DNA from: Pyrinomonadaceae bacterium
Lineage (GTDB): Bacteria > Acidobacteriota > Blastocatellia > Pyrinomonadales > Pyrinomonadaceae
Length of the DNA: 64,000 nucleotides
Direction: 5' to 3'
NCBI GenBank assembly: GCA_036277115.1
Contig: DASUNM010000021.1
Location: 434,001-498,000, forward strand
The notes beneath the pieces are model-generated. The model made no database searches, was not told where the DNA came from, and was given only the letters and a program-made list of their open reading frames with translations. The position numbers and the translations under genes were made by a program. Positions 11,605-60,858 of this stretch are shown piece after piece (positions within the stretch are counted from its first letter, which is position 1; every line of letters begins with the position of its first letter).

Positions 11605-11655
11605 CATCGAGCCTTGCATGAGAGCAGGTCGGGCGGTCGCTGCTTCGGTTTCAAA

Positions 11656-11687
11656 GTCTGATTTCAGATCTAAGATTTGAATCAGAC
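11656..11687. repeat. palindromic insert in RNase P helix P3
   Basis: GTCTGATT (11656-11663) pairs with AATCAGAC (11680-11687) around AGATCT-type words. It lies inside the stem formed by CTTCGGTT and AATCGAAG, which I assign to P3. It lengthens that helix rather than disrupting the core. Confidence 0.75.
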
Positions 11688-11831
11688 GCGAATCGAAGGA
11701 GAGGAAAGTCCGAACACCAGAGGGCAGCGAGCCCGCTAACGGCGGGGCGGCAGCTTCGGATTCAAGAATTCATTCAAGATTCCAAAGCTGACCGACGACA
11801 AGTGCAACAGAAAACAGACCAGCCGGCGGCA

Positions 11832-11861
11832 AGTCAGATTTTGAGATCTCAGATCTGAGTC
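11832..11861. repeat. GATCTSA-word palindrome in RNase P RNA
   Basis: TGAGATCTCA (11842-11851) is a perfect 10-base palindrome flanked by AGATT and AGATCTGAG words. It sits between two conserved core segments, so it is a peripheral hairpin extension. Confidence 0.7.
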
Positions 11862-12001
11862 CGCAGGTGATGGGTGAAACGGTGCGGCCGAAAGGCTAAT
11901 CTCAGGTTTCCGATTTGAGAGAGTAAGAGCGCACCGGCGCGTGTGGTGACATGCGCGGCCAGGCAAACTCCTCGCGGTGCAAGACCAAATAGGGAAGCAT
12001 T

Positions 12002-12033
12002 TGAGATTTCAGATCTCAGATCTGAGATTTCAG
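12002..12033. repeat. GATCTSA heptad-word hairpin in RNase P RNA
   Basis: TCAGATCT and AGATCTGA (12009-12016, 12018-12025) pair perfectly around one base. The outer GAGATT and GATTTC continue the stem imperfectly. Read linearly it is an array of 7-base words: GAGATTT, CAGATCT, CAGATCT, GAGATTT. Confidence 0.8.
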
Positions 12034-12113
12034 TGGGGTTGCCCGCCCAAGGCTTCCGGGTAGGTCGCTGGATCCAATCGGCAACGGTTGGGCTAGAGGA
12101 ATGATCGCCCTTC

Positions 12114-12161
12114 CGCTTTCAGATTTGAGATCTCAGATCTGAAATTTCAAATCTGAAAGCG
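12114..12161. repeat. long GATCTSA-word hairpin near the RNase P 3' end
   Basis: A perfect 15-bp stem (12114-12128 with 12147-12161; CGCTTTCAGATTTGA on the left) encloses GATCTCAGATCTGAAAT. It is the longest of the RNase P inserts and shares its words with the others. Confidence 0.85.
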
Positions 12162-12294
12162 GGAGACAGAATTCGGCTTACAGACTTGCTCTCATTGCAT
12201 CGGCATTTTCCTCGTACTGCTTTGTTTGCTTCTTATCGTCTGAGTGCGGCTATTTCCGAGTTCGATCAGCCTGGAATGAAGGAGCCCCCAACCA

Positions 12295-49919: not shown

Positions 49920-50465
49920 TCAAATCGACGAAGCGCTTCCCGGTGATCTAACCAGGTACTTCGGTTGTCGCTTGGACGGAATCGCTCGATTCCTGGATTC
50001 GGGTCCTTCAGCAGCGCGAAAGACGTTGCGCCAAACACAGTACTGTACGCAACCGAGGACGACCCATTCGTGGGCGCCGAGGCAAAATGCACAACCAGGG
50101 GCGTTTCCGCCCAAACAGACAGTTCCACACGCTAATGCGGTCGGCCAGCCGACGTAACGAGCGACGCAACTTTGAAAGCATGATCCGGAAAACTCTGTAT
50201 CCTGGGTAGCGGCAGTGCAGCCACACTTTCGCACCGCTGATTTGATCAGTTTCTCGAACTCGCGCTTCGACAACGAATTAGTGCGAATCCGACGTCCAGT
50301 TTCCGTTGAAGTCAGCCGGTGCGCTTTCTTATAGACAGCGCTGTTGTTTTGCGCATGTGCGCCACGCTGAAGCCGCAATTGATCCTTGGCTTGGGTGTCG
50401 AACGTGCTCGTTAATACGGAAATTGAAAGAACGGCAATTCCAAACAGTAGGCGGCGTAATGTCAT
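49920..50465 (-). CDS. secreted ten-cysteine protein, possible bacteriocin-like precursor
   Basis: The 181 residues have a signal peptide (cut about residue 26, after TQA), a basic propeptide-like region, then a compact domain at 81-143 with ten cysteines in pairs (81/83, 96/100, 113/117, 125/128, 139/143) separated by Gly/Ala/hydrophobic stretches. A charged tail follows. The layout (leader, spacer, cysteine-rich hydrophobic core) resembles halocin-C8-type and other disulfide-rich peptide precursors, but similarity is only in pattern. The adjacent 86-residue membrane protein could be an immunity partner. Alternative: a structural secreted protein. Confidence 0.55.
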   Translation of the reverse strand: MTLRRLLFGIAVLSISVLTSTFDTQAKDQLRLQRGAHAQNNSAVYKKAHRLTSTETGRRIRTNSLSKREFEKLIKSAVRKCGCTAATQDTEFSGSCFQSCVARYVGWPTALACGTVCLGGNAPGCAFCLGAHEWVVLGCVQYCVWRNVFRAAEGPESRNRAIPSKRQPKYLVRSPGSASSI

Positions 50466-51720: not shown

Positions 51721-51734
51721 ACACACGCGTGTGT
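51721..51734. other. perfect 14-base palindrome at the end of the giant gene
   Basis: ACACACGCGTGTGT is fully self-complementary and its last base is the final base of the giant-gene stop codon TAA. There is no T-run, so it is not a classical terminator. Confidence 0.4.
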
Positions 51735-54700
51735 TAGGGGCACGGGGCAAGAGTCGTCGCTGAATTGCGGGCGACGGGCGGTGTAGTCGGATTGCTGAAG
51801 TCAGTGGAGTTGTTGTTGATATCGGTGCAGCTTACCGTTCTAATCGCTGAGCGAGCGTTTGAGTTTGTACCTGACATCGCAATTGGGGCTGTCTCGGAGC
51901 AGTTGGCCGTGGTGCCATAGCCCAGAAAGTCGACAATCGTCGCGCCAAAGGGACAACCACTTCCAGTCAGCGCAGTTGTGCCCAGCACTAAAGCAACCTT
52001 GCCGGCGGTCGCTGACATGGCAATCGAGCCAGTAGCGTCAGGTGTAGGCAATGCGACTCCGTTCGCTCCGCCTGAAGCCTGCTGAATAAGGAAGTATTGG
52101 CCCGGAGCGATTGTTCCGGAAGTAATATCGGTCTTGTTGGTGGTGAAGTTACTCGTGGCTGCAGCGTATTGGACCGAATAGTTCGTCGCTGAAAAATCGA
52201 CGGTCGTTGTCCCGCGGTTAAAGATCTCGATGAAGTCATTTGTGTACGTGGCGCTCGCATTCCCACCACCACCATAGACCTGGCTAATAGCAAGTTGAGG
52301 CTGTTTGACGGTGGTTGTCTGAATCGCCGACTCGTTCCCGGGATTCGATTCGGTGGTGCTCGAGCTTACCGAAGCCGTGTTGGTTATGATCGTCCCGTCC
52401 GCGACCGCGGTGCCTACACGCACAACGAGAGTAAAGACTGCCGAGCCCACACCGAAGGTGGCGTTGGTACAGCTAATCGCGCCTGTTCCACCAACCGCTG
52501 GGACCGTTCCGCAGGTCCAGCCGACTGGCGCCGAGATTGATCGGAAAGTAGTGTTTGTCGGAACTGTATCTGAGAGTTGCGTGTTGCTAGCCACGGCCGG
52601 CCCGCCATTTGTGACAGTGATGGTGTAAGTGATGTCGTTCCCAATTGCTACGGGGTCGAGCGCATCAGTCTTGGTAACAGAGAGATCAGTCGTACTAGTG
52701 GCAGCATCATCATTCGTAATCGTCCCCAGACCCTGCGCGTCAGTAACCGTTGCTCCGGTGACACCGGTTAAATTTACGAAGAAGGTTTCGTTGGGCTCGA
52801 TATCGGTGTCGCCGTTAACGGTGACGCTAATGGTGGTGGACGTGCCATTCTGCGCAATGCTGCCACTGCCATTGATGATGGCCACGTAATCGCTGCCCGC
52901 GTTAGCGGGATCCGTGGTGCCGTCGGCGGTGTTAATTGTGAAGCTGACGCCGCCGGGCGGTGCGGGTGATGTCAGACTGACAGTGAAGTTGAAAGTGGTC
53001 GTGCCGCTGTTGGTCTCAGCCTGCGTAACGTTATTGATTGAAAGCGCCGGTGTGTCCACTCCCGCAGTAATGCTAAAGTCATCGACCGCCAGTCCATCGT
53101 CTGCACCGGAAGCATTGAAATCTGTCCAACGTATCCAGAATGTCGCTCCCGGCGCAATCGAGAGCCCGGTGATAGTGTTCGTGATCGCCGTACGGTTAGC
53201 GGCGTTGTTGCCGTCTTTGGCGCCTGCTGTGGTTGTGTTCGGCGTCGTGAAGTCGAGCGCGTTAACGTCGGTCCATGTTCCCGTCGTCAGGCTGGTGGCG
53301 TTCGTACTGTATTGGAAGTCGAGTTGGTCGGTGCGGCTGGCGGTGCCTAATCTCCATTGTTCGCCGGTGTAGCTAATCTGAAGCGAATTCAAAGTAGCTC
53401 CGGTGTCGTTGCGATAAAAGGCGCCGATGGTTGGCACGAGAGTGCCGGTCTGGAGTCCGCCCAGCGCGCGTTCGGTCGATGTGCCCGTCCCGTAGCTGTA
53501 GGTATCGCCGGTGGTACTGCCGCCGTCGTTGGCTGTGTAAGTGCTGTTTGCGCTCGTGCCGCTCTCGGCTCGCGGCCACGCCGGCGGTGTGGTGGCGGAA
53601 ACACCGCTCTGGGCCAGCACGTCGAAGTTCTCTGAGTAAGCAGTATTCACGGCGGCGATGCTGAACGGATCGTCAAGAAAGATAATGCCGAGTGCCTGAC
53701 TGTCGCTGATGGTCGCGCCGGATGCGCCGGACAGGTTCACCAGAAACATCTCATCGCCTTCGGGGTTCACATCGCCGTGGATCGTCACGGTGAAAGTCTC
53801 TGCGGTATCGCCGGAGACGAAGTTAAGCGTGCCACTTGCCGTGTCGTAGTCGGTGTTAGCGACCGTCGCGCTCGAATCCGCGGTGGCGTAGTTAACACTT
53901 ACGGTTGACTGTGACGTGCCGGTGAGCGTGACCGTGAAGGTCATGAGCGACGTGCCGGCGTTACCCTCCGTTATGATGGCGTCGGCGATTGCCAGCGACG
54001 GTTGCGTGTCGTCATTGGTGATCGTGCCGAGGCCTTGTCCGTCGGACACCGTAGCGCCCGTCACGCCCGTTATGTTCACAAAGAAGGTCTCGTTCGACTC
54101 GAAGACCGTATCGCCATTCACCGTGACGTCAACAGTAGTTGAGGTGTTTCCCTCCGCAATGCTGCCGCTGCCATTGACGATGGCGACATAGTCGCTCCCG
54201 GCCGTGGCTGGGTCGGTGGTACCGTCGGCCGTATTAACGGTGAAGCTAACGCCGCCGGCAAGTGCGGGCGCGGAAAGGCTGACTGTGAAAGTGAACGTGG
54301 TCGTGCCCGCGTTTGTTTCGACTTGGGTGACGTCGCCGATCGAAAGCGTAGGCGGCGCATCGTCGTTCTGAATAGTTCCCAGCCCTTGCCCGTCCAAAAC
54401 CGTGGCGCCTGAGACATTCGAGACATTTACGAAGAACGTTTCAACGCCTTCGTCGGCCGTGTCGCCGTTGACGGTGACGTCAAAGGTGTAGGACGAGCCG
54501 CCCTGAGCTATGGTTTGTGCCGTGAGAGAGCGAAGTTGATAGTCGTTGTCTTCAGTAGCGGGATTATCATCCTGCGCGGTCCCGTCAGCCGTCGCAATAT
54601 CAAAGCTCACTGTCGCGGGCGCAGGCGCCGATAGACTCACCGTGAAGGTGAAAGTGGTTGTGCCGCTGTTAGTTTCAGCCTGCGATACGTCGTTGATTGA

Positions 54701-57700
54701 AAGCGTCGGCAAATCGTCATGCTGGATAGTGCCGAGACCCTGTCCGTCGCTGACCGTCGCACCGAGCACGTTCGTAATATTGACAAAGAACGTTTCATCG
54801 GGCTCTACTGCGACATCGCCATTTACAGTGACGCTGAACGTGTAAGTCGTCTGTCCGGCGGGAATGATCTGATTCGTCGACGTCTTCGCAACGTAGTCGT
54901 TGTCTTCGGTCGCGGGCGTATCGTCTTGCGCAGTACCGTCGGCCGTGGCGATGTCGAAAGTCACGTCCGTTCCCTGTGCCGGCGCTGAGAGACTCACCGT
55001 GAATGTAGCTATTGCGGTCCCGCTGTTTCCTTCGGCAACCGTAACGTCGGTGATGGTGAGATTCGGTGTCGCTCCGCCGGTGCAGCTGTTCGCAGGCGAG
55101 CTTGAATTGCGCGGGAATGGGGCCGAGACTAAGAAGTCTGCGGCGTTGTCATTAGTGTCCTGACAGCCACCAAGTTTTCTGACATCTGCGGTCGTGTTGC
55201 TGTGCGCAGGGGCTGGAGCAGAATTCTCCGCACAATCTGCCCCTCCATAACCGACAAGATCGACGATAGAGGGCGCGAACGGACAACCGCCGCCGGTTAG
55301 CGCGGTCGAATTGTTCACCAACGCAATCTTGCCGCCGCTTGTCGCCAGGTTGGATGTGCCGGTCGCATCCGGCGTCGGCAAATCGGCTCCAATCGTTGGG
55401 CTCGTCGGCGATTCCTTCACGAGGAAATATTTGCCAGGGGCGATCAGGCAGGGACCAAGCGGACACAACTGAGTAACTGACCAACTCGTACCCGTGGCGG
55501 AAGCTTGCTGCACTGACCAGCCAGCAAGATCCACGGTTGTCGTGCCGCGATTGAATATCTCGATATAGTCGTTCTTGAAGGTCGCTCCAGAATTGTTTCC
55601 TCCGCCGTAAACCTGACTTATCACTAAATTCGCCGTGTCGTCATTCTTAATTGTGCCAGTCCCGAATCCCGGTGGCGCTATCCCGGCGCCACCGGTCGAA
55701 TTCGACAGATTGACTCTGAAGGTCTCGTCCGGCTCAACCAGCATATCGCCATTGATCGTGACGTTAATCGGCTTGCTGGTCTCGCCCGGCGCGAAGCTGA
55801 GCTGGCCGCTGGTCGCTACATAATCCGAGCTGTCGGATGCAGTCACGTTTGCGGTCGTGTAATCGACAGTAACTGTATTGCTGCTCGTCGGCGTCAACGT
55901 GACGGTGAACGTGACCACTGACGTGCCGCTGTCGCCCTCGGCAATGTTAACCAGGTCGTCGATGAACAGAGTTGGCGTCGGCGGCGCGGCATCGTCGTTC
56001 GTGATCGTGCCCTGGCCCTGCGCATCAGAAATGCTCGCATTCGTAGGAATCGAAAGGTTTACAAAGAAAGTTTCGTTCGGCTCAAAAGTCCCATCGCCGT
56101 TGACTAACACCGTGATTGATTCCGCCGTATCTCCGGGAACGAAAGTCAGTAAACCGCTGTTGGACTGATAGTCGCTCGCCGAACTTGCCGTGTTGTCCGC
56201 GGTCGCAAAATTAACGGTGACCGTCTGACCACTGGCCGTCGACAGCGTGACCGTAAAAGTGAACGCCGTGGTGCCGCTGTCTCCCTCGGCAATCGACAAA
56301 TCATTAATCGAGAGCGAAGGCGCCGGATCGTTGTCGCTGATGGTGCCCTGGCCCTGGCTGTCGAGCAGCACGGCATTGGTCGCCCCGGAAAGATTTACAA
56401 AGAAGTTTTCACTCGCTTCATCGAGCGTATCGCCGTTGACCAGCACCGTAATCGTCTGGGTTAAGTCACCGGGATTGAACGTCAGCATTCCGCTGTTTGT
56501 TTGATAGTCGTTTCCGGCGAGCGTTGCAGTGCCGTCAGCCGTCACAAAATTGACGGTGACAGTCTGGGCGCTGGCGGATGAGAGCGAAACCGTAAACGTC
56601 GCATTCACGGTCCCGACATTTCCTTCCGTCACGGTGACATCGTTAATCGTGATCTCAGGCTGGCAGTTACCTGCGGGTGAACTGCTATTGCGCGGATTGG
56701 GTGACGCTACGAAGAAGTCTGCGCCATTCTCGTTCGTATCAACACAGCCGCCGGCTTTTCTGAAGTCGGCAGTCGTGTTCGACGGCGCGGCAGCGGGGGC
56801 AGCTCCTTCATAGCAATGGCCCGTGGTCGTTGGGCTGTTGCCATAGCCGACAAAATCAACAATGGTTGAGTTGTTCGGATTGAACGGCGTCGCGAGATCA
56901 TCTCCGGGGCAGGCCGCGGCCGGCAGAGCCGCAGTGCCAGCGACCAGCGCAACCTTTCCGGCTGTATTGCCCATCGCAATCGTGCCGATCGCGTCGGGCG
57001 CTGGCAGCGCTACTCCATTAGTCGTGCCGCCGCCTTCCTGCACCAAATAGTATTTCCCGGGCGCGATGCTGCCGCTGGTTAGATTGGTCTGGCTTCCGAA
57101 GTTGGAACCGACGGCCGCATATTGAATTGAATGGGGCGTGACGGCGAAATCGACCGTGGTCGTGCCGCGATTGTAGATTTCGACGAAGTCATTCCGGAAC
57201 GGTGCGCCTGCATTGTTTCCGCCGCCGTAAACCTGCGAGATGACCAGACCTGACGCGTCATCATTCTGAATCGTGCCCAATCCCTGACCATCCGCGACGC
57301 CCGCGTTGGCGGAAACGTTCGAGATGTTAACGAAGAATTCCTCGTTTGACTCGACCGTAGTGTCACCATTCACAGTGACATCGAAGGTGTAGTTGAACTG
57401 GCCGGATGGAATGCTCTGTGAAGTCAGACTGCGCGCCACGTAATCGCTGTTGGCGACGGTCGCGGAACTATCCTGCGTCGCAATGTCGAAAGTAATGCCT
57501 TCCGGTGGCGCCGGAAGATTTGAGCTCACCGTGAAAGTGAATGTCGTCGTGCCGGCGTTGCCTTCTTCTCTCGTAACGTCGTTCACGGTCAACAGCGGAA
57601 TATCATCGGTGACAATCGTCCCGGTTCCCTGAGCATCGGTGACGCTCGCGCCCGAGACGTTGCTGACATTCACGAAGAACACTTCCGTCGGCTCCATGGA

Positions 57701-60700
57701 TACATCGCCGTTGACAGTGACCTTGAACTGATAAGTCTGCAGGCCCGGCGGAATGGATTGCGCCGTCAGCGACTGACCGGCGTAATCGTTGTTCGCTACT
57801 GTCGCCGTATTGTCCTGCGTCGCGATGTCGAAGGTAACCGGTGCAACCGACGTGGTAGACAAGCTAACTGTGAAAGTAAATATCGTCGTCCCGGCATTTC
57901 CTTCGTTCTGGCTGACGTCGTTGATGCTTAAGGCCGGACCGCTGACCGTGAGAGCAGCGGGCGTACTGCTGGCAGTATTCGAACCGTTCGTTGCCGACGC
58001 GGTAATGTTGGCAATTCCCGGATTCTGCCCCTTCACGGTAGCGGTTGCGACACCGGTCATGAAGTTCAGCGACACGGATTCGACGAATGCTACGTTTGTA
58101 TTGTCCGAGATGAAATCGATTGGAACGCCAGTCATCACTCGACCGAATTGATCGAAAGCCTGCGCGGTGAATTGCTGAGTCTGGCCTACGCCAATCGTTG
58201 CGGACGGCGGCGAGATCGTGACCGTCGTCAGAATCCCCGGGCAATTTCCAAACGGCGTGCCGTCGGTCCTCAGCCCCGGCGAGTATCTTCCGCTCGCGCC
58301 TACCGCCGCGGTGTGCTGAACGTACGCGCCGGTAATGTCGGGCGATCGCGTCAGCGATTGGTTGTTGTCGCCATCGCGTCCGGTGCTGCCTCCATAGCTG
58401 AATTCTGTAATCAGGTTTCCGGACGCGTCGCGAACCAGAATCGTCACGCCTGAGTTGGTGAGCGACAAACCGGCGGTCGTCGTGGCCTTCACAACCTGCG
58501 CACAACCAAAGACCGCGTCCGAAGAATTGAAGCTGCCGCCGCCAAACACGACGATCGCTTCGCCCGGGGGCAGGGAAGTGCCCGAAGCGAAAGTAAAGCG
58601 CGTGGTTTCTGTAGTGCTGCCAGTGGCCCGCGTGCGAATCGTCCATCCGCCTAAACTAATTACTTCTCCCGAAGTGCCGTTGACGAGTTCGACGAATTCA
58701 TCATCGGTGCCGTCGCGCACGCCGTCGTGATTCGCATCGCCGGCTATCCCCTCAGGCGGATCGGCCAGGACTTCGTTGATCACGACATTGCGTGTCGAGT
58801 CGCCCAGGAACCTTACCGTCACCGGATTGCTGTCGCGTCCATCAGCCTGAATGAACAAGGTGACGTTGCCTGCGCCGCGCAAATCCGCGGGCACGCGCAC
58901 GACAACTTCATCGAGCCCTGGCATTTCCGGTGACTCAATCACGGCTTCCGGCGTGACGACTCGGCCGCCAATGTTGACCGTTCGAACAACTCCTTTGCGG
59001 ACGCCGGTCGAAAAGATCGATAGGCGCAGGTTTCCGCCGCTCGGATCAAAGGGCCCTTCAGCCTGCGTCTCAGTATTAAGAATCTGCCCTTCGCCGACGC
59101 CGTCGCCGGTCTTGGTGAAGATGCCGGGCGCGGCGACTAAAACCGGCACCGTTCCTTTTGAAGCAAAGCCGTCCGCATTCGTGACAACTACTTCGGCGTT
59201 GCCAATCTCAGTCTGGTCCGGTACGAGGAAGTGAACGCGCGTGGGCGAGACGAAGAATATCTGCGCCGCGCGGCCATTGACCGTCACGGTGGTCCCGCCC
59301 ACGTTAGTCGGAAATTCTCCGTTGGGTTGCTTCTGCGACTGCTGCGTGGTGTTGGCGAGCACAGTGCCGAACGCAGCGGCGATGCTGTTTGGCGCCACCG
59401 CTTTGATGGGTGATGGCTCATGGCCGAGTGATGCCTGATTCAGGATCGAGGTCAGCGCGCCGAACGGGGGCCGTGCTACTAAACCAGTCGCATAAATTTC
59501 AGATTTGTTTTCCAGGCCGGCTGTCACGGTGCCGGAAAGAGCACGCGGAAAATTGAACACGACCGTCGATCCGTCATCGTTGAGGGACGAGACAACCTCA
59601 CAAGCCGCGTTGCTACCATCAAAGCAATCCGCGTCGCTGTCCACGACGTTTGTGATGCGAGCGAATGTGCCCGTCGGTGTGTCGTAAGTGTAAAGCTCTA
59701 CGCTTGCGTCTGAGTTGCTGAATCCGGTCAGTGCGCGACGCGTGGCGAAAGCGATGCGCAAGCCGTCGCCGCTGATCGTCGGGTGGAGCGGCACTTCAGT
59801 CACGCGCGTGCCGAGCGTTGTTACCTGCCGGTTAACATTGCCAATGCGCCCGTCGTAATAAAAGACCTGCGTCGAATTCGCGGCCGTCTCTGCGGAGTAG
59901 GCGACGCGCGCGCCGTCGTCGCTGATGGCCCGGCCGTAGGTCATCGCGAGCCGCGTAACATTCAACGAAAGTACTGTCTGAGCCGCGCTTGTCCGATTTA
60001 TTCTGAGCAGGTCGCGATTCGTGCTCGCCGTCGCGCCCAGATCGCGGATGCACGCGATGGCTGAGCCGTCGCCGCTAATCTTTGCGTCACTGAAACCAAC
60101 AATGCCCGTCGAGTTCGTCAGTTGCGTGAACGCGGCGGCGGTTGAATCGAAGACAAAGACCTCGAGATTTCCGTCGCCGTTTTGTGAAGTCAGATTTCGG
60201 TTTGACGAGAACGCGACGAACCGGCCGTCGTCAGACATCGAAGGTTGAAAGTTGCCTTCCGTGACTCGATTCGCCGGATTGCCCGGTGTGGTGTTGGTGA
60301 CCTGAACGAGATTAGAGCCGTTGAAAAGAAAGATCTCTGAGTTTCCATCAGCGTTCGTTCCCAGCGGGTCGTCTTTTGAAGCGAAAGCGACCCGCGATCC
60401 GTCTTGCGAAACGCCCGGGGCGACCGCGCGCGTCCTACCCATCTGAAAGAATGTGGGCGGATCGACCGAGATGTTTGCGCGAATCGCGCGAAAGTGGTTC
60501 GTGCCACCCGCTCCAGCGACGTCTTCAGTCGATTCAAAACCGATAATTCGTCCATCGCCGCTAATCGACGGATTAATGCTGATGCCTTCATCGGTGGTAT
60601 TGGTGATGCGTCGGAGAGAGGACTGTGTTTCGGCCGAGCGCAGGCACACAAAACCGATGGCCACCGCGGCGGCCAAAGCGAAGAAGACAATGCGCGGGCG

Positions 60701-60709
60701 AGACGTCAC
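51734..60709 (-). CDS. giant secreted Calx-beta / lamin-tail surface protein
   Basis: This 2991-residue protein starts at GTG 60709 with a signal peptide (IVFFALAAAVAIGFVCL). Domains in order: TolB/PD40-like beta-propeller repeats (about 35-410; SGDGRIIGFES, SDDGRFVAFSS); a TIGR03437-type acidobacterial module (about 415-640; NGRAAQIFFVSPTRVHFLVP); a lamin-tail domain (about 640-790); a Big2-like Ig fold (about 810-900); then ten Calx-beta units (NDVxxxEGNAGTTxFTFTVSLS...NDDA) interrupted by two further lamin-tail domains (VISQVYGGGNN...EIFNRGTTTVDL), an ENFD-type jelly-roll segment, a DUF11 repeat and a final lamin-tail. Calx-beta folds bind calcium and lamin-tail domains are common in secreted matrix proteins, so adhesion or matrix roles are likely. 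There is no sorting anchor at the C-terminus. Confidence 0.92.
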   Translation of the reverse strand: MTSRPRIVFFALAAAVAIGFVCLRSAETQSSLRRITNTTDEGISINPSISGDGRIIGFESTEDVAGAGGTNHFRAIRANISVDPPTFFQMGRTRAVAPGVSQDGSRVAFASKDDPLGTNADGNSEIFLFNGSNLVQVTNTTPGNPANRVTEGNFQPSMSDDGRFVAFSSNRNLTSQNGDGNLEVFVFDSTAAAFTQLTNSTGIVGFSDAKISGDGSAIACIRDLGATASTNRDLLRINRTSAAQTVLSLNVTRLAMTYGRAISDDGARVAYSAETAANSTQVFYYDGRIGNVNRQVTTLGTRVTEVPLHPTISGDGLRIAFATRRALTGFSNSDASVELYTYDTPTGTFARITNVVDSDADCFDGSNAACEVVSSLNDDGSTVVFNFPRALSGTVTAGLENKSEIYATGLVARPPFGALTSILNQASLGHEPSPIKAVAPNSIAAAFGTVLANTTQQSQKQPNGEFPTNVGGTTVTVNGRAAQIFFVSPTRVHFLVPDQTEIGNAEVVVTNADGFASKGTVPVLVAAPGIFTKTGDGVGEGQILNTETQAEGPFDPSGGNLRLSIFSTGVRKGVVRTVNIGGRVVTPEAVIESPEMPGLDEVVVRVPADLRGAGNVTLFIQADGRDSNPVTVRFLGDSTRNVVINEVLADPPEGIAGDANHDGVRDGTDDEFVELVNGTSGEVISLGGWTIRTRATGSTTETTRFTFASGTSLPPGEAIVVFGGGSFNSSDAVFGCAQVVKATTTAGLSLTNSGVTILVRDASGNLITEFSYGGSTGRDGDNNQSLTRSPDITGAYVQHTAAVGASGRYSPGLRTDGTPFGNCPGILTTVTISPPSATIGVGQTQQFTAQAFDQFGRVMTGVPIDFISDNTNVAFVESVSLNFMTGVATATVKGQNPGIANITASATNGSNTASSTPAALTVSGPALSINDVSQNEGNAGTTIFTFTVSLSTTSVAPVTFDIATQDNTATVANNDYAGQSLTAQSIPPGLQTYQFKVTVNGDVSMEPTEVFFVNVSNVSGASVTDAQGTGTIVTDDIPLLTVNDVTREEGNAGTTTFTFTVSSNLPAPPEGITFDIATQDSSATVANSDYVARSLTSQSIPSGQFNYTFDVTVNGDTTVESNEEFFVNISNVSANAGVADGQGLGTIQNDDASGLVISQVYGGGNNAGAPFRNDFVEIYNRGTTTVDFAVTPHSIQYAAVGSNFGSQTNLTSGSIAPGKYYLVQEGGGTTNGVALPAPDAIGTIAMGNTAGKVALVAGTAALPAAACPGDDLATPFNPNNSTIVDFVGYGNSPTTTGHCYEGAAPAAAPSNTTADFRKAGGCVDTNENGADFFVASPNPRNSSSPAGNCQPEITINDVTVTEGNVGTVNATFTVSLSSASAQTVTVNFVTADGTATLAGNDYQTNSGMLTFNPGDLTQTITVLVNGDTLDEASENFFVNLSGATNAVLLDSQGQGTISDNDPAPSLSINDLSIAEGDSGTTAFTFTVTLSTASGQTVTVNFATADNTASSASDYQSNSGLLTFVPGDTAESITVLVNGDGTFEPNETFFVNLSIPTNASISDAQGQGTITNDDAAPPTPTLFIDDLVNIAEGDSGTSVVTFTVTLTPTSSNTVTVDYTTANVTASDSSDYVATSGQLSFAPGETSKPINVTINGDMLVEPDETFRVNLSNSTGGAGIAPPGFGTGTIKNDDTANLVISQVYGGGNNSGATFKNDYIEIFNRGTTTVDLAGWSVQQASATGTSWSVTQLCPLGPCLIAPGKYFLVKESPTSPTIGADLPTPDATGTSNLATSGGKIALVNNSTALTGGGCPFAPSIVDLVGYGGADCAENSAPAPAHSNTTADVRKLGGCQDTNDNAADFLVSAPFPRNSSSPANSCTGGATPNLTITDVTVAEGNSGTAIATFTVSLSAPAQGTDVTFDIATADGTAQDDTPATEDNDYVAKTSTNQIIPAGQTTYTFSVTVNGDVAVEPDETFFVNITNVLGATVSDGQGLGTIQHDDLPTLSINDVSQAETNSGTTTFTFTVSLSAPAPATVSFDIATADGTAQDDNPATEDNDYQLRSLTAQTIAQGGSSYTFDVTVNGDTADEGVETFFVNVSNVSGATVLDGQGLGTIQNDDAPPTLSIGDVTQVETNAGTTTFTFTVSLSAPALAGGVSFTVNTADGTTDPATAGSDYVAIVNGSGSIAEGNTSTTVDVTVNGDTVFESNETFFVNITGVTGATVSDGQGLGTITNDDTQPSLAIADAIITEGNAGTSLMTFTVTLTGTSQSTVSVNYATADSSATVANTDYDTASGTLNFVSGDTAETFTVTIHGDVNPEGDEMFLVNLSGASGATISDSQALGIIFLDDPFSIAAVNTAYSENFDVLAQSGVSATTPPAWPRAESGTSANSTYTANDGGSTTGDTYSYGTGTSTERALGGLQTGTLVPTIGAFYRNDTGATLNSLQISYTGEQWRLGTASRTDQLDFQYSTNATSLTTGTWTDVNALDFTTPNTTTAGAKDGNNAANRTAITNTITGLSIAPGATFWIRWTDFNASGADDGLAVDDFSITAGVDTPALSINNVTQAETNSGTTTFNFTVSLTSPAPPGGVSFTINTADGTTDPANAGSDYVAIINGSGSIAQNGTSTTISVTVNGDTDIEPNETFFVNLTGVTGATVTDAQGLGTITNDDAATSTTDLSVTKTDALDPVAIGNDITYTITVTNGGPAVASNTQLSDTVPTNTTFRSISAPVGWTCGTVPAVGGTGAISCTNATFGVGSAVFTLVVRVGTAVADGTIITNTASVSSSTTESNPGNESAIQTTTVKQPQLAISQVYGGGGNASATYTNDFIEIFNRGTTTVDFSATNYSVQYAAATSNFTTNKTDITSGTIAPGQYFLIQQASGGANGVALPTPDATGSIAMSATAGKVALVLGTTALTGSGCPFGATIVDFLGYGTTANCSETAPIAMSGTNSNARSAIRTVSCTDINNNSTDFSNPTTPPVARNSATTLAPCP

Positions 60710-60762: not shown

Positions 60763-60858
60763 TGCAATATGGTTAAAGGCGCCGGGCTCAGGTGACGCGG
60801 CTTTGCGCGCTGAGTTAGGATGCTTATCGTCTTCGAATATTCGGCTACGGGGAGACTC

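Follow-up and report, generated by a model that had tools for sequence, protein, structure and literature searches.

A 2991-residue mosaic protein of Pyrinomonadaceae: constant head of propeller and TIGR03437, variable tail of Ig-like and lamin-tail units

The window analysed here is a stretch of 64,000 nucleotides from a Pyrinomonadaceae bacterium (contig DASUNM010000021.1, positions 434,001 to 498,000). Its minus strand carries a gene of 2991 codons with a GTG start and an intact frame (51734-60709), hereafter the window gene, and all domains named below lie on that strand. The protein begins with a hydrophobic, signal-peptide-like stretch, read from the sequence by eye (residues 1-31; 60617-60709). 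This is followed by a PD40-type beta propeller matched by Pfam, with a weak likeness to TolB (residues about 30-410; 59480-60622), and by a TIGR03437 (Soli_cterm) module with a TIG-like part, found by profile (residues 415-637; 58799-59467). Next come a first lamin-tail domain of divergent type, LTD1, which is 22-33% identical to the other LTDs (residues 638-822; 58244-58798), and a bacterial Ig-like domain of the Big_1/Big_2 type in Pfam (residues 828-924; 57938-58228). The remainder is built mostly from Calx-beta domains (CB1 to CB10) and LTDs, assigned by profiles and trees. CB1 (residues 925-1036; 57602-57937) and CB2 (residues 1038-1151; 57257-57598), both of class B, precede LTD2 (residues 1154-1349; 56663-57250). 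Three class A domains, CB3 (residues 1351-1461; 56327-56659), CB4 (residues 1464-1573; 55991-56320) and CB5 (residues 1579-1691; 55637-55975), precede LTD3 (residues 1695-1878; 55076-55627). The last block contains the class B domains CB6 (residues 1882-1999; 54713-55066), CB7 (residues 2001-2117; 54359-54709) and CB8 (residues 2120-2234; 54008-54352), then CB9, which falls outside class B (residues 2237-2347; 53669-54001), and an unnamed domain of about 206 residues that we label JR (residues 2348-2553; 53051-53668). CB10, the class B sister of CB8 (residues 2554-2668; 52706-53050), a DUF11 domain matched by Pfam (residues 2672-2800; 52310-52696) and LTD4 (residues 2804-2991; 51737-52300) complete the protein.

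A first-pass annotation had described the gene as a mosaic of a PD40 propeller, TIGR03437, Ig-like, ten Calx-beta and four lamin-tail modules with repeated Calx-beta plus LTD blocks. Profile searches recovered every one of these modules, and the blocks are present in the resulting domain order; DUF11 and JR had been absent from that description. In Pfam, Calx-beta (PF03160) matched ten stretches with 332.9 bits together, every single one scoring between 28.1 and 73.5 against a cut-off of 27, and LTD (PF00932) matched four with 167.8 bits together (42.1 to 62.2 per unit against a cut-off of 34.3). DUF11 reached 58.5 bits at residues 2675-2798. TIGR03437 scored 103.2 bits against a cut-off of 29.05 (58814-59401) and 99 bits in another scan, and was missing from one full-length scan of the protein. 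The Ig-like domain scored just below the cut-off for Big_1 (31.4 against 34.9 bits) and above that for Big_2 (25.4 against 22.8).

The host genome (4.85 Mb in 30 contigs) contains 33 Calx-beta matches spread over several genes. On the same contig, some 90 kb away, a protein of 4041 aa is encoded (L027, 198-12323) that has six Calx-beta matches; its C-terminal end resembles that of a protein encoded by a 3152-codon frame on contig C24. Four other Calx-beta proteins of this genome (L028, L029, L032 and L033) have in common a C-terminal stretch around FWL.KLN.F.GD...AEMVKAFI.S.EYR.RFG, which is putatively DUF4214-like and which the window gene lacks. Downstream of the window gene and on the same strand, an ORF encodes a Cys-rich protein of 181 aa with a hydrophobic N-terminus (49920-50465, minus strand); no homologue was found in the orthologue loci searched. 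On the other side, the start of an SDR ORF (60820-60858, plus strand) lies about 13 residues upstream of where its homologues begin to align, so the true start may be later and the divergent promoter region wider, as judged from this alignment. The window also contains a class A RNase P RNA (11621-12196, plus strand; 253 bits).

A profile made from the ten window Calx-beta domains and searched against the PDB retrieved the calcium-binding domains (CBDs) of NCX1 and CALX, with a best value of 1.7e-18. We modelled the CB7-CB8 tandem (mean pLDDT 84.8), whose interdomain angle is not reliable at a pTM of 0.60; the model matched CBD12 as well as single CBDs. The best solved relatives of a modelled single domain were NCX/CALX CBDs (Z 14.1, 1.8 A over 105 residues), and the first structure from outside the Calx-beta family followed at Z 8.7. 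The Calx-beta domains, of which only CB7 and CB8 were modelled, are predicted to have the NCX calcium-binding-domain fold.

In the NCX1 CBD1, as described in an excerpt of PMC3386913, Ca2 is associated with E385 and E451, Ca3 with E385, D447, I449, E451, D498 and D500, and Ca4 with E385, D446, D447, D499 and D500; in the mutant form of this domain, Ca1 is replaced by K454, which bridges D421 and E451. The same excerpt presents R532 as the interdomain linchpin of NCX1 and calcium as stiffening the tandem domains. In the window protein, the places of E385, D421, D447, E451, E454 and D500 are acidic in 10/10 domains and that of D499 in 9/10, E385 and D498-D500 being matched by position because the HMMER alignment stretch does not reach them. 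The D446 place is G in all ten domains, and the D498 place is mostly N (acidic in 1/10). Across 53 Calx-beta domains taken from orthologues and other proteins, most of the ligand positions hardly vary. Since seven of the nine NCX1 acidic ligands are kept in at least nine of the ten domains, calcium binding by the window Calx-beta domains is plausible. No R532-like arginine was found in the matching loop of the ten-domain alignment, where the loop place was counted by hand. Caution is suggested by the Calx-beta domain of integrin beta4, for which the title of a cited work reports cation-independent stability.

The head of the protein (residues 1-633) had a match in 43 of 60 relatives, many of the weaker matches covering the TIGR03437 part only. 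It was present in all six other genomes of the host genus at 66-69% identity, with differing frame lengths. Among named records, a head 56% identical was found in a Pyrinomonadaceae MAG and a partial head 78% identical in a gp4 acidobacterial MAG. From the 43 relatives with a match, the 15 best-scoring loci were examined, shorter or weaker pieces (e.g. G019, G020, G031, G007 and G035) being excluded. The SDR gene that neighbours the window gene recurs in 9/15 of these loci and ThiG in 6/15, with contig ends restricting the remaining ones. At least one of the two genes adjoins the head in 12/15 loci, which argues that the head locus was inherited in place. Carriage by a mobile element was considered and set aside; matches of the head in plasmids are confined to distant propellers (3 records).

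The tails behind this head vary. Six of them reach a contig end (L068, L070, L075, L076, L077 and L082) and are incomplete, as are three that change frame (L072, L073 and L079), and the class letters that follow lean on the window, because the class profiles were built from its own domains. With A and B for the Calx-beta classes and L and Ln for two LTD types, the window tail reads 'BB-L AAA-L BBBA-JR-B-DUF11-L' and that of L069 'BB-L AAA-L BBB-L AAA-L'. L069 and L074 each have four Calx-beta units, with B and A blocks mainly alternating; L070 has no A block. Outside the genus, L077, L078 and L080 contain only Big-type Ig and Ln units, as in the L078 string 'i-Ln ii-Ln ii-Ln ii-Ln ii', where i is a Big-type Ig. 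The common repeat of these tails is one to three Ig-like domains and a closing LTD. By profile assignment, the Ig type in this repeat is Big-type outside the genus and one of two Calx-beta classes within it. After the last LTD, the L069 and L071 frames have an extension SCS.SYSSM in common; the window protein and L074 end in LAPCP.

Internal repetition of the window protein is far beyond chance. In domain-against-domain comparisons, Calx-beta pairs are 40-79% identical and LTD2-4 49-59%. The longest exact repeat inside the gene is only 15 nt, which rules out an expansion or assembly artefact from near-identical repeats. The cores quoted by the first-pass annotation for three LTDs, VISQVYGGG and IFNRGTTTVD, are real with small differences: LTD2 has VISQVYGGG/IYNRGTTTVD, LTD3 VISQVYGGG/IFNRGTTTVD and LTD4 AISQVYGGG/IFNRGTTTVD. 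These cores had been read as a sign of internal duplication. Counted over all 60 LTD units, VISQVYGGG occurs in 13/34 units from other proteins, and also in Deinococcus and Hymenobacter; being a consensus common to LTDs of this type, it alone proves no duplication. GTTTVD is more specific, with 16/26 units in tails of the window gene and its orthologues against 1/34 elsewhere. The label 'animal-like' attached to the Calx-beta and LTD folds is misleading, as Calx-beta was found in 37/199 genomes sampled from the phylum, and 4/14 control genomes have an LTD match above the cut-off; a borrowing from animals was set aside.

Whether the repeats arose by recent duplication of Calx-beta plus LTD blocks within the window gene was assessed with per-domain trees. 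Such an origin would fit the high similarity of some units: CB8 and CB10, the closest pair, are sisters at 79% protein identity and CB6/CB7 are 70% identical. It would also fit the GTTTVD distribution, as well as a 14-row LTD tree set comprising two window units and 12 orthologue-tail units, with none from other proteins. In the 45-row LTD tree, however, for which 15 of the 60 units were dropped as divergent, partial or duplicate, LTD2, LTD3 and LTD4 fall in three separate places, and forcing them into one clade was rejected (AU p 0.00067). The partners of LTD2 are the first tail LTDs of L068, L069, L072 and L074 (support 100/94; up to 77% identity), those of LTD4 are unit 3 in L068 and unit 4 in L074 (95/90), and LTD3 falls with units of L069, L072 and L074 (99/95). 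The positions of these LTD3 partners are not constant, which suggests that some shuffling of units happened. The Calx-beta tree, built by a quick method from 74 rows and 113 columns, resolved few forks. It recovered class B (CB1, 2, 6, 7, 8 and 10) with an SH-aLRT of 99, and placed six of the ten domains, CB1-CB6, with orthologue domains, mostly from the same position, several of these groups having support under 95. CB7, CB8 and CB10 form a window-only group (support 90; CB8+CB10 99), and CB9 pairs weakly (85) with a Calx-beta domain from another gene of the host genome. The codon positions 1, 2 and 3 of CB8 and CB10 are identical at 0.84, 0.90 and 0.42; with only 42% of third positions in agreement, even this pair appears to be old and under constraint. 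The outcome that the first-pass annotation had named as refuting its reading is thus largely observed: most units are nearer to units of other proteins than to their neighbours, whereas CB7, CB8 and CB10 lie together. Because those other proteins are orthologues, internal duplication is not denied but made older, and most Calx-beta and LTD duplications appear to predate the host genus. For most units these trees contradict a recent origin, which we consider very improbable.

JR gave no match in Pfam or NCBIfam. It was found in 18/247 sampled genomes of the phylum but in only 1/7 genomes of the host genus, the window's own, where it is present in a single copy. A local JR profile recovered the domain in 18/20 loci (L115-L134), which encode varied proteins, always within the first 140 residues of the frame and mostly behind a hydrophobic stretch; in L115, L116, L118, L132 and the overlapping pair L124/L134, Calx-beta directly follows. 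The window JR begins far from the N-terminus, at residue 2348. Since JR is N-terminal elsewhere and none of the other six genomes in the genus has it, the domain seems to have been imported into the window chain, as far as its distribution indicates. The fold predicted from the single JR sequence (mean pLDDT 46.5) was too poor for a fold search.

Bacterial tandem-LTD, Calx-beta and TIGR03437 proteins are known kinds, and the window protein belongs with modular giant extracellular proteins. It resembles the NCX1/CALX CBD12 in fold, in its short-linker tandems and in most acidic calcium ligands. In contrast to CBD12, it has ten Calx-beta domains with LTDs intervening, all in a single chain that is probably extracytoplasmic; D446 and D498 are replaced, and no R532-like linchpin was seen. 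With ExeM/NucH nucleases and tandem bacterial LTD proteins, the latter already reported in a section of PMC6085458, it has in common an LTD type with an ISQVYGGGGN core at about 50% identity; however, its LTDs close Ig-like units, whereas those of ExeM/NucH are N-terminal, and it has no nuclease. Like fibrillar and RTX-type adhesins, it is a long chain of beta-sandwich repeats that calcium may stiffen, but its repeats are strongly diverged, and general Pfam and NCBIfam scans of the protein matched no RTX repeats, VWA or LapA-like retention module. LapA carries one Calx-beta domain, the deletion of which left adhesion on a hydrophobic surface unaffected, according to an excerpt of PMC10574481, and MpAFP has Ca-dependent Ig-like repeats (excerpt of PMC4083281). 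As in the TIGR03437 proteins of Acidobacteriota, the window module is well matched (103 bits), although here it follows a propeller close to the N-terminus, whereas that family is named for its C-terminal place. In the literature searched, which left most subscription journals outside, neither the constant-head/variable-tail pattern nor an Ig swap within a unit was found, and no paper turned up on Calx-beta with a lamin tail domain, on Pyrinomonadaceae with Calx-beta or on TIGR03437.

We propose, with a probability of about one half, that the window protein is a large secreted fibrous protein, probably associated with the surface or matrix. Its head (propeller, TIGR03437 and usually an LTD) would be vertically inherited, and its tail of repeated units, in each of which an LTD closes a run of one to three Ig-like beta-sandwiches, would gain, lose and swap units between species. 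The protein would be exported via a putative signal peptide. The two secretin genes of the host genome make a secretin-dependent exit possible; the TIGR04183 sorting domain, the T9SS tail family, had no match in the whole host genome. The absence of an anchor claimed earlier agrees with our scans, in which no anchoring or sorting domain of Pfam or NCBIfam was matched in the protein. Of its 22 Cys, 15 lie inside LTDs, consistent with an oxidising compartment. Beta-sandwiches strung together by short linkers point to a long rod, and the tail would form such an extended rod, with the number of units setting its length. By analogy with the NCX tandem domains, calcium at the Calx-beta sites would stiffen it. 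The LTDs could act as joints or binding sites, and the head, the LTDs or both would bind polymers or partner cells in adhesion or matrix formation.

A periplasmic or inner-membrane-anchored scaffold, in which the N-terminal hydrophobic stretch would be an uncleaved anchor, is a less likely reading. The expected cleavage-site region of the window protein, RSAETQSS, is not textbook, and the propeller is weakly TolB-like; but orthologues have more ordinary sites (e.g. SGRAQ), the TolB likeness amounts to 30 bits against a cut-off of 343, and the roughly 17 domains that follow the head in tandem would, if extended, exceed the width of the periplasm. The frame changes in three orthologue tails and the wide tail variation might instead indicate that the giant gene is decaying and its functionless tail drifting. 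This is hardly to be expected, since the frame changes sit in many-contig draft genomes, where errors are likely, whereas all 2991 codons of the window gene stand in one unbroken frame with a coding-type third-position GC (0.67 against 0.54 and 0.53), and the calcium ligand positions are largely conserved. Equally remote is an action of the LTDs and propeller on nucleic acid, or in an extracellular nuclease-like system as ExeM/NucH. When the CB5-LTD3 stretch is compared with plasmids, several of the top matches are annotated as ExeM/NucH endonucleases, yet Pfam and NCBIfam found no nuclease domain in the window protein. An excerpt of PMC6085458, which repeats an earlier suggestion of a membrane-directing role for the LTD of ExeM, also gives this LTD as dispensable for extracellular DNA degradation.

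Within the proposal of a secreted fibrous protein, the parts established here are architecture, orthology, conserved place and tail variation, together with the antiquity of the duplications, and the constant head is the best candidate for a specific task. More tentatively, and with odds clearly against it, the gene might represent an unnamed Pyrinomonadaceae surface family defined by the constant propeller-TIGR03437 head and a combinatorial tail of [1-3 Ig-like] + LTD units. In such a family the Ig type would be swapped (Big-type, Calx-beta class A or B) and the LTD joint kept, giving calcium-independent and calcium-tunable rods on one plan, and modules of foreign origin would be taken up mid-chain, for instance JR, which is N-terminal elsewhere. 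In most giant repeat proteins, homogenised or misassembled repeats make the sequence difficult to interpret. The window family, with old diverged repeats, a fixed head and place and differing tails, makes the gain, loss and swap of units traceable by position, and it provides a natural comparison, within one protein family, between Ig spacers that carry calcium-type sites and spacers that lack them.
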